Assembly (NCBI RefSeq): GCF_039909015.1
Contig: NZ_CP150919.1
Span: 3,324,501 to 3,388,500 of the forward strand
Origin: Pseudomonas grandcourensis
Lineage (GTDB): Bacteria; Pseudomonadota; Gammaproteobacteria; Pseudomonadales; Pseudomonadaceae
DNA length: 64,000 nt
Direction: 5' to 3'
The notes under the pieces: generated by a model
Seen by the model: only the letters and a program-made list of their open reading frames with translations
The model's database searches: none
What the model was told of the DNA's origin: nothing
Position numbers and translations under genes: made by a program
Shown here: positions 10,304-32,723 of the stretch, in pieces
How positions within the stretch are numbered: position 1 is the stretch's first letter
Layout: each line of letters begins with the position of its first letter

Positions 10304-11296
10304 TTAGCTTAAAAGATCGGCTATGGACTCTGCTGCAAGTTGGTAGGAGCGACAGCGGGCTTGTGGATCATAGATCCGGGCGTCGATCATGAGCTCGTCA
10401 GCCTTAGTGAATTCTAAGAACTGCACAAGGCCGCTACGGACGTCATCCGAGGTGCCTATTGCCGTGAATGTGAGCTCTTGCTCCAAGCTCCGGCGTAAAT
10501 TCGGCGATATCCGTTCCATGAAGCCTTCTTCAGGTGCCGGTAATAGCGTTGGCTGACCTGTGTGAACCCCAGCCACCCATTTACGGTGGGAGCTCGCGAT
10601 CATTTCAGCCTCTGCCCGAGTGTCTGCGGCGAACACGTTGATCCCTGCCATGACGTAAGGTTTGGAAAGATGGCGAGAGGGTTTGAATTTTTTGCGGTAG
10701 ACCGATAGCGCTTCTTCAATCATCCTCGGTGCGAAGTGTGAAGCGAACGCATAGGGTAAGCCGAGCTCCGCTGCAAGGCTGGCGCCGTATGTGCTCGATC
10801 CCAGAATCCAGACTGGGATATTTTGGCCGGCACCTGGGACAGCTTGTACACCTTGATAACCTTTTCCTTCGAAGTAGTTGAGAATCTCTACAACGTCGTT
10901 TGGGAACTGATTCGGGTGCGCGTCTAATGATCTTCTAAGCGCTCGGATAGTAGCTTGGTCTGCCCCCGGTGCCCGACCTACCCCAAGGTCAATCCTGCCT
11001 GGGTAGAGCGTCTCCAAGGTACCGAATTGCTCGGCGACCATGAGTGGAGCGTGATTGGGAAGCATGATCCCACCCGAACCAATCCGAATTGACTTTGTCT
11101 GGGCTGCCAAGTGGCTCATCAGCAAGGTCGTCGACGAGGAACCTATCCCGGGCATGTTGTGGTGTTCGGCCAGCCAATATCTACGGAAGCCACATTGCTC
11201 GACATGCTGAGCCAGCTTTACCGAGTTCGCGTAGGTCTGCGCAAGGGTACTGCCGGTGTTAATAGGTACGAGGTCAAGAATGGAGAGAGCTGTCAT
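10304..11296 (-). CDS. LLM-class flavin-dependent oxidoreductase (luciferase-like)
   Basis: A 330-residue bacterial-luciferase-like TIM barrel of the MsnO8/YhbW type. The family signatures are the N-terminal LSILDLVPI, the YWLAEHHNMPGI segment, the IRIGSGGIMLPNHAPL strand, and LYPGRIDLGVGRAPG. Such enzymes use reduced FMN (sometimes F420) and O2; substrates vary and cannot be deduced. GGGAA precedes the ATG. It is the last gene on the minus strand at the left edge of the first catabolic block and could supply an oxygenation step, but no dedicated flavin reductase is adjacent. Confidence 0.85.
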   Translation of the reverse strand: MTALSILDLVPINTGSTLAQTYANSVKLAQHVEQCGFRRYWLAEHHNMPGIGSSSTTLLMSHLAAQTKSIRIGSGGIMLPNHAPLMVAEQFGTLETLYPGRIDLGVGRAPGADQATIRALRRSLDAHPNQFPNDVVEILNYFEGKGYQGVQAVPGAGQNIPVWILGSSTYGASLAAELGLPYAFASHFAPRMIEEALSVYRKKFKPSRHLSKPYVMAGINVFAADTRAEAEMIASSHRKWVAGVHTGQPTLLPAPEEGFMERISPNLRRSLEQELTFTAIGTSDDVRSGLVQFLEFTKADELMIDARIYDPQARCRSYQLAAESIADLLS

Positions 11297-11455
11297 GGTT
11301 TTCCCGATGTCTGAATGCTTACTTCAGTGTTGCAGTTGCTCTACCTGAGCAGCTACCTGTCCCAGCATGTGGGTGCTCGCAGCAGAGCTGCACCCGGCGT
11401 GGTTGGGAACGGCGAGTGCAAAATCCAAAAGTGCGAACCAATTCGATGGCGACAG

Positions 11456-11860
11456 TCATTGGGCCGCCGCTGCAACGCCGTAGGAGTCTTCGAAGAAGCG
11501 ATAGCGAGTGATCAGATCGTCGATGACCTCAAACTCGATCGCAAACTCACTTGTGATCGTCTTACCGGTGCGCAGCACCTTGCACTCCAGCGAGCCGAGA
11601 GCGACGCCGCGCTCATGCTCGGCCATCACCGTGGTGATATCGAAGCTGATTGGCTGAAGGTATTGGCCGAAGTCTCGGTAAAACGCGGCTACCGCCTGAC
11701 GACCTTTACGCTCTCCAACCCAAGGGGCGATATCTGGCGCGCCGGGGATGCTCCAATCCACGTCTTGGCTGAAACTCTCTGAAATCGATTCCGGGGTCTG
11801 ACCAGCGGAAATTTTTGCGAACAAACCACGGATTGCTTCGAGGGTTTTTTCTGTGCTCAT
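11456..11860 (-). CDS. NTF2-like / SnoaL-like small protein
   Basis: A 134-residue protein starting at the ATG at 11860 with GGAG upstream. The pattern (I..LFAKI..G, IPGAPDIAPWVGERKGRQAV, ..FYRDFGQYL, and the C-terminal F.IEFEVIDDLITRYRFFEDSY) is that of the SnoaL/NTF2-like fold, about 130 residues. Members include ketosteroid isomerase and dehydratases such as scytalone dehydratase, so a role in isomerisation or dehydration of a cyclic intermediate is possible. It is encoded next to the TIM-barrel protein at 11939 on the same strand and is probably cotranscribed with it. Confidence 0.75.
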   Translation of the reverse strand: MSTEKTLEAIRGLFAKISAGQTPESISESFSQDVDWSIPGAPDIAPWVGERKGRQAVAAFYRDFGQYLQPISFDITTVMAEHERGVALGSLECKVLRTGKTITSEFAIEFEVIDDLITRYRFFEDSYGVAAAAQ

Positions 11861-11938
11861 GGTTTCAGACTCCAATGATGGGAAGGCAAATGGCTTTCAG
11901 CTCTCGCAGAGCTGAAAGCCTGGCGTCACGACTCGGAT

Positions 11939-12796
11939 TTACATATCGAACTGGCTGATGGTCGCCTGGAAGGCACGATTGGCCATGGTTTCCAGGGGCA
12001 GCTTGCGCTCGACGTCGGAAAGAATCTCCAGACCCCATGGGCCTTGGTAACCCGCCGCCTGGACTGCTTTGATGAACGCTGGTAAGTCGAATACGCCTTC
12101 ACCTGGCAAGCAGCGTTTGTGAATGGTGTCCATCCACAGCGGTTCCACGGCATATTTGTGGGCATCGTTGAGTTCGATCGACTTGATAAAGCGTGCAGGG
12201 ATTTTGGCTATTTCGCTGAAATCGACGCCGCCTCGGCTGAGGTGCCAGATGTCCAACAGAATTCCGCCGTTAGGCTGATTCGCGCCTTCCACAATGGCCA
12301 GGGCGGTCTCTACCGTGCGGACGTTACTGAAAGGCATGATCTCCAGCACGATGTTCACACCGACCTCTGCTGCTTGTTGGCAGAGCAAGGTGAACTCTTT
12401 GACCATCAACTTGATGTCTGCGACGTCTTCGCCAATGCCAGGGCCAATCTTGATGGAGCGAGCGCCCAGTTCTTTAGCTGCGTGAATCAGCTCTTGGCGC
12501 ACCTTGTCCGACTGACGACGGCGCTCACCGCTGTGGTACCAGTCAACAAGGAACTCCAGCTCAACGTGTTTGATACCGTTGTCTTGAAGGATCTGCTTCA
12601 TGGCCGGGAAGCCGATCTTGTCGACCGTATCCATCATCCCATTGTGAACTAGGCCGATACCTTTGAAGCCTGCGTTCGCGGCAGCCTCCATACGATCCTT
12701 GAAGGAAAATGGGCTGACTTCGCTTGGGCCCATCGGGTAAATATCGCCGGCAATTGTCCAGTAGGCTGCCAACAGTTCAATGTTTTGAGTAGTCAT
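11939..12796 (-). CDS. Sugar phosphate isomerase/epimerase-like TIM barrel (copy 1)
   Basis: A 285-residue AP-endonuclease-2/xylose-isomerase-like TIM barrel. The metal-binding residues expected of the fold are visible: E in VLEIMPFSN, D and H in LLDIWHLSRGG, and a late E in GLEIL. It is a clear paralog of the protein at 22277, with long identical stretches such as LEIMPFSNVRT and AVEPLW. Family members include IolE/IolI, 3-dehydroshikimate dehydratase and 3-keto-sugar lyases. I infer a dehydratase, isomerase or lyase acting on an oxidised cyclitol or glycoside. AGAGGA precedes the ATG. The divergent neighbour is a LysR gene. Confidence 0.85.
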   Translation of the reverse strand: MTTQNIELLAAYWTIAGDIYPMGPSEVSPFSFKDRMEAAANAGFKGIGLVHNGMMDTVDKIGFPAMKQILQDNGIKHVELEFLVDWYHSGERRRQSDKVRQELIHAAKELGARSIKIGPGIGEDVADIKLMVKEFTLLCQQAAEVGVNIVLEIMPFSNVRTVETALAIVEGANQPNGGILLDIWHLSRGGVDFSEIAKIPARFIKSIELNDAHKYAVEPLWMDTIHKRCLPGEGVFDLPAFIKAVQAAGYQGPWGLEILSDVERKLPLETMANRAFQATISQFDM

Positions 12797-31273: not shown

Positions 31274-31407
31274 TTAGAGCAGTTCGCTGAGACTGCCAAT
31301 TTGTATGCTCTAACTGGAGCTATTCGAGTGCCTCACTGACTGTCGGTGCCCGCGCTGACAGTTTCGGTTTCAAGCTCTCGTTCTATTACTGCAACTCAAT
31401 AAAAAAG

Positions 31408-31442
31408 CCCACAACGCCGGAAGAGAAATCTTCCGGAGTGGG
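31408..31442 (+). other. Intercistronic hairpin before the porin gene
   Basis: CCGGAAGA and TCTTCCGG form an 8-base-pair stem with a GAAA loop, inside an outer CCCAC/GTGGG pairing. It is in the 220-base gap between the permease and the LamB-type porin. There is no downstream T-run on the plus strand (the A-run lies upstream), so it may set relative expression or RNA stability rather than terminate. Confidence 0.5.
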
Positions 31443-31493
31443 TTCGGCTGTCCCAAAAAAATCCATAAAAAAACAACAAGTGGAGAAAATAGC

Positions 31494-32723
31494 ATGTCGT
31501 TCAACACCAAGGGAGCTGTCTGGTCTGTACTTGCAGTAGCGGTATTGCCGCTGTCTGCGCATGCGTTAGATTTCAGCGGCTATTTCCGCACCGGTGTCGG
31601 GAACTCTTTAGAGGGAGGCAATCAGTCTTGCTTTCAGCTCCCAGGGGCGCAATCCAAGTACCGGTTGGGTAACGAATGCGAGCAATACTTTGAATTCGAT
31701 CTTCGGCAAGACCTGCTTAAGCTCGACGACGGTTCCGCTATTAGCGTCGAAGGTATGGCCCAGTTGTTCAACGAGTACGGCCATACACCGAGATTTACGG
31801 GGGACTATGGCTTTGCGCGAATGAACCAGATGTATGCCGAGTGGAGCAAAATGCCCGCTCTTAACGGAGGATCCTTTTGGGCGGGCCGCCGTTACTACAA
31901 TCGAAACAGCATCGAAATGAGTGACTTCTTCTACTGGAACCAGAGCGCGAATGGCTTTGGGTTCGACCAGGTAGGCATCGGTGATCTCAAGTACAGCTAC
32001 GTTTTCTCGCGCAAAGACAACCTGTTCCAAAAGGACTTCACCAACCGCCACGACTTCACAGTCGGTGGCTTCGAAACAAACCCAGGGGGTGGTGTGGAGC
32101 TGGGCGTGAGCTTCCTCGACAAGCCAAACAGCAGGGACGACTCTCACACTGGCTGGTCGGCTATCGCACAACACAAGCAGAAAGGGTTCCTGGGAGGGTT
32201 GAATACCTTTGCAGTGCAGTACGGACAAGGCCCGGGAACTGCATTGAGCTACACCGGCGACCCAACACTAGACAGCAGCAACCATAGTTGGCGTTTCGTG
32301 GAGTACTTTGACTGGCAAATGACCCAGCGATTTAGTGGGCAATTCCAAATCGTTTACCAAAAGGATACCCATCCTAATGAGGACGATGACCAGAGTTGGT
32401 TGTCGATCGGCGTTCGTCCTGTCTATGCGTTCACTGAGCAATTCAAGCTGAGCACCGAGGTTGGTCGAGATCAAGTGGATGCGCCCGGGGGGACGCGAAA
32501 ATTGACGAAGTTCACCATTGCTCCAACCTGGTCGCCGGCCGGCCCAGGCTTCTGGTCTCGCCCGGAACTTCGCCTGTATTACACCTATGCCTCTTGGAAC
32601 AAGGCAGCCCAACGTGCCGCGAGCGAAATGGCTGCTGGCTCAGCGCTCTCGGATAGTGGCGCCTTCGGTAATGCCCTTCATGGTTCGAACGTCGGCCTCC
32701 AGCTTGAGTACTGGTGGAAATGA
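31494..32723 (+). CDS. LamB-type carbohydrate porin
   Basis: A 409-residue outer-membrane protein with a signal peptide at about 1-24 ([15 protein letters not shown]). Its maltoporin-type features are an early SGYFRTGVG strand, the [22 protein letters not shown] segment, a C-terminal [11 protein letters not shown] and a terminal aromatic strand ending GLQLEYWWK. These proteins are trimeric 18-stranded channels for sugars and glycosides. A porin in the same operon as a sugar ABC importer supports a carbohydrate-like or glycosylated substrate larger than a simple aromatic acid. Confidence 0.88.

Follow-up and report, generated by a model that had tools for sequence, protein, structure and literature searches.

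A conserved proteobacterial gene cluster in Pseudomonas grandcourensis with a predicted route from cyclitols to hydroxyquinol

Which compound feeds a pair of hydroxyquinol-cleaving enzymes whose genes lie among those of a sugar-type importer and of enzymes resembling cyclitol dehydrogenases? The question is raised by a gene cluster of Pseudomonas grandcourensis, which was analysed within a window of 64,000 nucleotides (positions 3324501-3388500 of the single-contig 6.76 Mb genome). The proteins of most concern are the ring-cleavage enzymes, two triose-phosphate isomerase (TIM) barrels, an IolG-type dehydrogenase and a second Gfo/Idh/MocA-type protein, Gfo2, which served as operon marker. A sequence-only reading had proposed that an imported deoxy-inositol-type ring is oxidised and dehydrated to a trihydroxybenzene, and Pfam and NCBIfam scans of the window recovered every protein that it had listed (Table 1). 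The cluster probably serves the catabolism of a C6 cyclitol (an inositol, a deoxy-inositol or a cyclohexanetetrol), which would be imported, oxidised and dehydrated to hydroxyquinol; the probability of this reading is put at about 0.65. It is the best supported by a conserved minimal operon, importers of predicted cyclitol type and the kinship of the TIM barrel to IolI and QuiC1, while the roles first given to several smaller proteins, and the choice of substrate, had to be changed.

The identities of the hydroxyquinol dioxygenase and the maleylacetate reductase are clear from sequence comparison, and the calls made earlier for both were borne out. Among solved structures the dioxygenase best matched hydroxyquinol 1,2-dioxygenase 1tmx (9.1e-85), as against 1e-26 to 1e-32 for catechol-type dioxygenases, and the Tyr and His stretches that provide the iron ligands in such enzymes are aligned in it. 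The reductase matched the maleylacetate reductases 3w5s (4e-127) and 3hl0 (4e-126); its top match, 3jzd (1.5e-163), is named merely as an iron-containing alcohol dehydrogenase. Two pcaF genes for 3-oxoadipyl-CoA thiolase scored above the cut-off elsewhere in the genome.

Gfo2 belongs to a tight family: all 13 plasmid records found at E 1e-20 were 60-80% identical, and scanning one genome per species with a profile yielded 71 loci, made up of 69 members of the family and two outgroups at 38-39%. The nearest named relatives by Gfo2 were Pseudomonas sp. Irchel s3f7 and P. jessenii (90%). Gene content was compared in those 60 Gfo2 loci for which 15 kb of DNA or more was available, taking up to 10 kb on each side of Gfo2, where genes at the edges can be missed. 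The TIM barrel was found in all 60 loci and Gfo2 in 59; the dioxygenase, the reductase and the Dabb protein were each found in 57, as was a LysR-type regulator at 50% or more, and IolG and the sugar ATP-binding cassette (ABC) ATPase were each found in 54. Within the DNA covered, the dioxygenase was not found in L110, L115 and L158, nor the reductase in L118, L124 and L158. In Pseudomonas viridiflava p2.C9 (L175) only a 105-residue match to Gfo2 was obtained (10001-10315), with most of the cluster retained. The same set of genes recurs in Alpha-, Beta- and Gammaproteobacteria, and the grouping proposed for the window is thereby taken beyond chance.

Gene order likewise showed a common core. In Burkholderiales the order is LysR, dioxygenase, TIM barrel, IolG, Gfo2, ChvE-type importer, Dabb protein and reductase; the set is close to this form in Azospirillum and Novosphingobium and is rearranged in Pseudomonas. 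The minimal form, Burkholderiales locus L148, consists of ten genes (6024-16633) spaced no more than about 130 bases apart, leaving no gap for a hydroxylase gene; each of its genes was present in all 19 other chosen Burkholderiales loci with the order kept, LysR being inverted in L162. Rhodobacterales and Aureimonas have importer, (dioxygenase), TIM barrel, IolG, Gfo2, Dabb protein and reductase, and the rhizobial form has short-chain dehydrogenases/reductases (SDRs), with no IolG found. A single run on Aureimonas pAU20b holds importer, TIM barrel, IolG, Gfo2, Dabb protein, reductase, dioxygenase, two CoA-transferase subunits and pcaF, and Azospirillum oryzae has the same enzymes plus a porin.

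As controls, 17 loci were picked by the dioxygenase alone out of 35 listed places outside this genome. At the same thresholds the reductase was found in 12 of the 17, and the TIM barrel, IolG and Gfo2 were each found in none. The Dabb protein occurred in five and YciI in four control loci lacking the TIM barrel, and in L104 the Dabb protein also lay beside the dioxygenase and reductase, with the TIM barrel absent. Since Dabb and YciI thus accompany the ring-cleavage pair where there is no TIM barrel, the upstream half is taken to comprise the TIM barrel, IolG (or an SDR) and Gfo2. The Dabb protein probably fits the ring-cleavage half better, and its candidacy as an aromatising cyclase was set aside. 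Weaker matches, below the thresholds, did occur in two controls: in L089 and L090 a distantly related TIM barrel (28% and 26%) directly adjoins the dioxygenase, joined in L090 by an IolG-like match at 34%. These stretches (10.3 kb in L089, 6.6-10.1 kb in L090) may represent a divergent form of the system described here.

The two TIM barrels of the window, TIM1 and TIM2, are 66% identical. The model of TIM2 (predicted local distance difference test score 95.2) had as its nearest folds, among the matches listed, Lmo2234, IolI and the aromatising dehydratase QuiC1. By alignment its metal residues are Glu152, Asp182, Glu208 and Glu257, located at the ends of the corresponding strands of the model. 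The third is Glu in 29 of 29 and in at least 97% of 73 sequences, where QuiC1 aligns Gln, so that the Glu-Asp-Gln-Glu set aligned in QuiC1 is not present here. TIM-like matches are common (440 plasmid records at E 1e-5, all but four below 60% identity).

IolG scored 377.1 bits against TIGR04380 (inositol 2-dehydrogenase; cut-off 355), with 3euw and 4hkt as best solved matches. In a tree of 15 operon rows (including three identical pairs) and 17 other IolG rows of the same genomes (one repeat), a branch with 100/100 support separated the operon IolGs from the others, indicating that the operon enzyme is a dedicated one. Homologues of SDRa, 69-73% identical, were found in three rhizobial clusters, a type in which IolG was not found. 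Gfo2 matches the Gfo/Idh/MocA fold family; in 27 of 27 sequences GITHPH replaces the GxGxxG glycine loop and Lys101 and His186 are kept, and the catalytic Asp before His is Val in 26 of 27. Gfo2 could act as a reductase, as a dehydrogenase or, if redox-silent, as a dehydratase.

Features of the importers suggest cyclitols as their cargo. SBP1 and SBP2, paralogous substrate-binding proteins of the window (66% identical), matched 4irx at 259.4 and 281.5 bits and 4rxm at 220.9 and 217.4 bits, and the next sugar-binding protein at 157.7 and 153.0 bits, respectively. We take 4irx to be the Caulobacter myo-inositol-binding protein and 4rxm to be a myo-inositol complex. The rhizobial importer resembled the importers of the iolD regions of three Burkholderiales, which were three of the 12 iol regions fetched (binding protein 47-49%, permease 51-54%, ATPase 53-55% identical); in 73 other loci its binding protein had no match, its permease reached at most 31% and its ATPase at most 41%. 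L148, by contrast in the Burkholderiales, has a binding protein of the monosaccharide type, a ChvE equivalog (478.7 bits, cut-off 460). Pseudomonas locus L113 adds a sugar-porter protein of the major facilitator superfamily (MFS), found in nine of nine relatives, and an OprB porin, found in three of nine.

In the proposed route, IolG (or an SDR) would oxidise one ring hydroxyl to a ketone and the TIM barrel would eliminate water beta to it. Gfo2 would perform a further oxidation or reduction, depending on the number of hydroxyls, and loss of the final water would give hydroxyquinol (C6H6O3), which the dioxygenase, Dabb protein and reductase would convert to 3-oxoadipate. Where the ketone adjoins a CH2 group and the other four carbons carry hydroxyls, as in 2-deoxy-scyllo-inosose, two beta-eliminations would leave oxygens at positions 1, 2 and 4, the pattern of hydroxyquinol. 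Starting from cyclitols C6H12On, no net oxidation would be needed for n=6, one for n=5 and two for n=4. Acid dehydration is known to turn 2-deoxy-scyllo-inosose into benzenetriol. One paper describes chemical conversion of protected myo-inositol into 1,2,4-trihydroxybenzene in several steps and of a protected inosose into 1,2,3,5-tetrahydroxybenzene (PMC11467972). No literature on a cyclitol-to-hydroxyquinol pathway was found in openly licensed papers, where the term hydroxyquinol also catches hydroxyquinoline.

A number of observations weigh against this route. The roles assigned to the enzymes of the upstream half are predictions, and the redox role of Gfo2 is doubtful because its usual glycine loop and catalytic Asp are missing; its best solved profile match, over partial length, was DgpA of C-glycoside breakdown (68.7 bits). 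A single TIM barrel must perform one to three dehydrations, unless the final water leaves spontaneously. The match tables give 4irx and 4rxm generic names without the myo-inositol ligand; among the 12 iol regions, SBP1 was just 29-33% identical to binding proteins in five, and SBP2 had no match in any. The loci compared are not independent, many coming from congeners and L108 and L109 being two copies in one contig, and L158 carries the TIM barrel and Gfo2 without dioxygenase or reductase. Among 298 congeners, 12 (own genome included) had the TIM barrel at 45% or more; in the DNA taken, 11 of these had the dioxygenase and just nine had Gfo2. Gfo2 is truncated in G473; G307 keeps dioxygenase and reductase but lacks Gfo2 and IolG, and in G390 the TIM barrel stands alone with its LysR, with neither dioxygenase nor Gfo2. 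The association of TIM barrel, dioxygenase and Gfo2 is thus strong but not absolute.

The deoxy-inositol favoured by the sequence-only reading is one among several possible cyclitols. Of 47 genomes searched (46 locus carriers and this genome), 34 had an IolD match above the cut-off, which makes myo-inositol unlikely as the general substrate, a further point against the route in that form; many carriers already possess the classical route, and in them the operon is probably used for a different cyclitol. In P. grandcourensis itself the best IolD match reached 314.5 bits (cut-off 715). A bolder version, in which a fully hydroxylated inositol isomer gives hydroxyquinol with no net redox change, is considered unlikely. 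IolG would oxidise the ring, the TIM barrel would dehydrate it to a 1,2-dione, Gfo2 would return the hydride, yielding a deoxy-inosose, which two further dehydrations would aromatise. This would amount to an oxygen-free, three-enzyme synthesis of a benzene ring from a saturated polyol for growth, spread over three classes of Proteobacteria.

The main rival, already named as the alternative by the sequence-only reading and now weakened, is that a trihydroxybenzene glycoside serves as substrate. One Gfo protein would form the 3-keto-glycoside, the TIM barrel would beta-eliminate hydroxyquinol, a second Gfo protein would reduce the keto-sugar, and the aglycone alone would be cleaved. According to two papers, sets of Gfo proteins and TIM barrels perform such eliminations in AtOGE (PMC10628242) and LgdABC (PMC7676230), and LgdB2 catalyses both elimination and hydration, so that one TIM barrel could suffice and the argument from the single barrel is weakened (PMC7676230). 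The match of Gfo2 to DgpA fits this explanation as well, and a small glycoside would be compatible with sugar-type importers. Against it, IolG lies above the inositol 2-dehydrogenase cut-off, and the binding proteins of the window and the rhizobial importer appear to be of inositol type. By alignment the TIM barrel has Glu-Asp-Glu-Glu, against the His-Asp-His-Glu published for AtOGE (a comparison with the published residues, no direct alignment to AtOGE being made); the difference is not decisive because such eliminases are stated to have arisen convergently (both from PMC10628242). The AtOGE structure 8BVK was neither among the sequence matches listed nor among the best 50 fold matches, which is an absence only. 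On balance a glycoside is judged improbable. A 111-residue open reading frame (21898-22233), considered as the beta subunit of a C-glycoside enzyme, had no Pfam or NCBIfam match and looks spurious.

It is still less probable that two functions are merely co-located, with importer, IolG, TIM barrel and Gfo2 leading a cyclitol or sugar into sugar metabolism and the hydroxyquinol block serving a free aromatic. The blocks of the window do lie on opposite strands with two LysR regulators, luciferase-like monooxygenase (LLM) and flavin mononucleotide (FMN) reductase genes lie nearby in a P. jessenii relative and in Agrobacterium, and the G390 region holds TIM1 and its LysR in the absence of the dioxygenase. 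However, in Burkholderiales, Azospirillum, Aureimonas and Rhodobacterales the two halves adjoin each other within a single run, and the Aureimonas and Azospirillum stretches carry no annotated iolB, iolC, iolD or iolJ. With three hydroxylase-type queries the 60 Gfo2 loci yielded 0, 1 (29% identity) and 0 matches, a weak test of low power, as the queries detected just four of 22 controls besides their own. That the TIM barrel only isomerises an inosose, like IolI, while the dioxygenase acts on another polyhydroxybenzene such as tetrahydroxybenzene, is very improbable, given that the companion reductase groups with maleylacetate reductases and that the CoA-transferase and pcaF genes of Aureimonas expect plain 3-oxoadipate.

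Table 1. Features of the cluster, with positions in the window
Feature	Position	Strand	Basis or remark
MsnO8-type luciferase-like monooxygenase, accessory	10304..11296	-	TIGR03558, 434.9 (cut-off 166.95)
SnoaL-like protein	11456..11875	-	Found in window
TIM1, AP_endonuc_2 TIM barrel, predicted cyclitol-ketone dehydratase	11942..12796	-	PF01261; paralogue of TIM2; Glu-Asp-Glu-Glu metal residues by alignment
LysRa, LysR-type regulator	12906..13820	+	Pfam; adjoins TIM1 in L106-L109 and L111
Zinc-dependent dehydrogenase, accessory	13977..15008	-	Pfam ADH_N/ADH_zinc_N
Gfo2, second Gfo/Idh/MocA-type protein, operon marker	15205..16293	-	Pfam
SDRa, predicted cyclitol dehydrogenase	16375..17178	-	Pfam
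Dabb protein	17530..17835	-	PF07876; probably ring-cleavage half
Hydroxyquinol 1,2-dioxygenase	17925..18860	-	Best solved match 1tmx
LysRb, LysR-type regulator	18987..19907	+	Pfam
Maleylacetate reductase	19958..21148	-	Iron-alcohol-dehydrogenase type; true start probably near 21020
NTF2-like (DUF4440) protein, accessory	21117..21500	-	PF14534
TIM2, TIM barrel paired with IolG	22277..23131	+	PF01261
IolG-type cyclitol dehydrogenase	23147..24229	+	TIGR04380; real start probably near 23228
FucP-like MFS permease	24422..25684	+	TIGR00885, 290.4 bits (cut-off 280.4)
SDRb	25722..26531	+	Pfam
SBP1, periplasmic binding protein of predicted cyclitol type	26613..27566	+	Best solved match 4irx
SBP2, paralogue of SBP1	27599..28585	+	Best solved match 4irx
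ABC importer ATPase, ribose-type	28642..30234	+	Two ABC_tran stretches
ABC importer permease, ribose-type	30272..31273	+	PF02653
LamB-type porin	31494..32723	+	PF02264, 1.6e-112

Several further genes of the window appear to be accessory. The NTF2-like protein, earlier suggested as a dehydrating partner, was found in just 17 of the 60 Gfo2 loci; it is not generally needed and was set aside as the general dehydratase. The zinc dehydrogenase is present as described and looks accessory, with counterparts in four of the 60 loci, all found with an Agrobacterium query and none with the window's own protein. The luciferase-like monooxygenase had a counterpart in three of the 60. FMN reductase and LLM genes recur near such clusters (L107, 18833-19954, with a SnoaL-like gene; L063, 23026-25645), where they perhaps serve an accessory flavin-dependent step.

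Other arrangements around the dioxygenase were also observed. On a plasmid of Sinorhizobium meliloti Rm41 (L105, 8613-16597), a hydroxyquinol-dioxygenase cluster includes a type II 3-dehydroquinate dehydratase, an enolase-like protein, an NTF2-like protein, a TIM barrel and a flavin adenine dinucleotide oxidoreductase, with iolG nearby, and is possibly a second alicyclic route to hydroxyquinol. On a plasmid of Paraburkholderia PGU16 (L102, 4236-16086), a sugar ABC importer, a type II 3-dehydroquinate dehydratase and a butanediol-type dehydrogenase occur with YciI, the dioxygenase and maleylacetate reductase, and no Gfo2 is annotated. In L084-L087 ribose-type ABC importers flank the dioxygenase-reductase pair; the TIM barrel, IolG and Gfo2 were absent at the thresholds used.

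The cluster seems to be strain-variable, because a genome labelled as the same species (G569) gave a QuiC-like match alone and no close TIM homologue; the cluster's flanking DNA had no match there, leaving the island test uninformative. An MvaT-type xenogeneic silencer adjoins the cluster (9725-10129, +), and near it (7732-8490, -) lies a putative defence component, a protein that combines HNH_2 with ABC-3C C-terminal domain 11.

If the cyclitol route is correct, bacteria can degrade saturated ring polyols not only through the classical inositol pathway but also by aromatisation and intradiol ring cleavage, parallel to quinate breakdown and tying inositol-type compounds to the 3-oxoadipate pathway. 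It would also account for a conserved operon whose parts are annotated separately as inositol 2-dehydrogenase, sugar isomerase and dioxygenase, and would offer enzymes for the production of 1,2,4-benzenetriol from renewable polyols.

Known hydroxyquinol routes start from aromatics by way of hydroxylases. The present cluster shares their two enzymes, with 3-oxoadipyl-CoA thiolase in the genome, but has a sugar-type importer and non-oxygenase enzymes upstream. With canonical inositol catabolism (IolG, IolE, IolD, IolB, IolC and IolJ) it has in common an IolG-type first enzyme, an importer of predicted inositol type and a TIM barrel that is distantly like IolE and closer to IolI; it differs in having no IolD over the cut-off in this genome and in that the ring would be aromatised, not hydrolysed. 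The quinate/shikimate route via 3-dehydroshikimate dehydratase (QuiC, AsbF) uses a different dioxygenase, its QuiC1 has Gln in place of the third metal residue Glu, and the product predicted here carries no carboxylate. Beta-elimination of 3-keto-glycosides (AtOGE, CGE/Dgp and LgdABC), as described in the sources cited above, likewise combines a Gfo/Idh/MocA dehydrogenase with a metal-dependent TIM barrel, whereas the present system is set apart by metal residues unlike those of AtOGE, an IolG-type dehydrogenase, a putative inositol-type importer and a core operon with a single TIM barrel.

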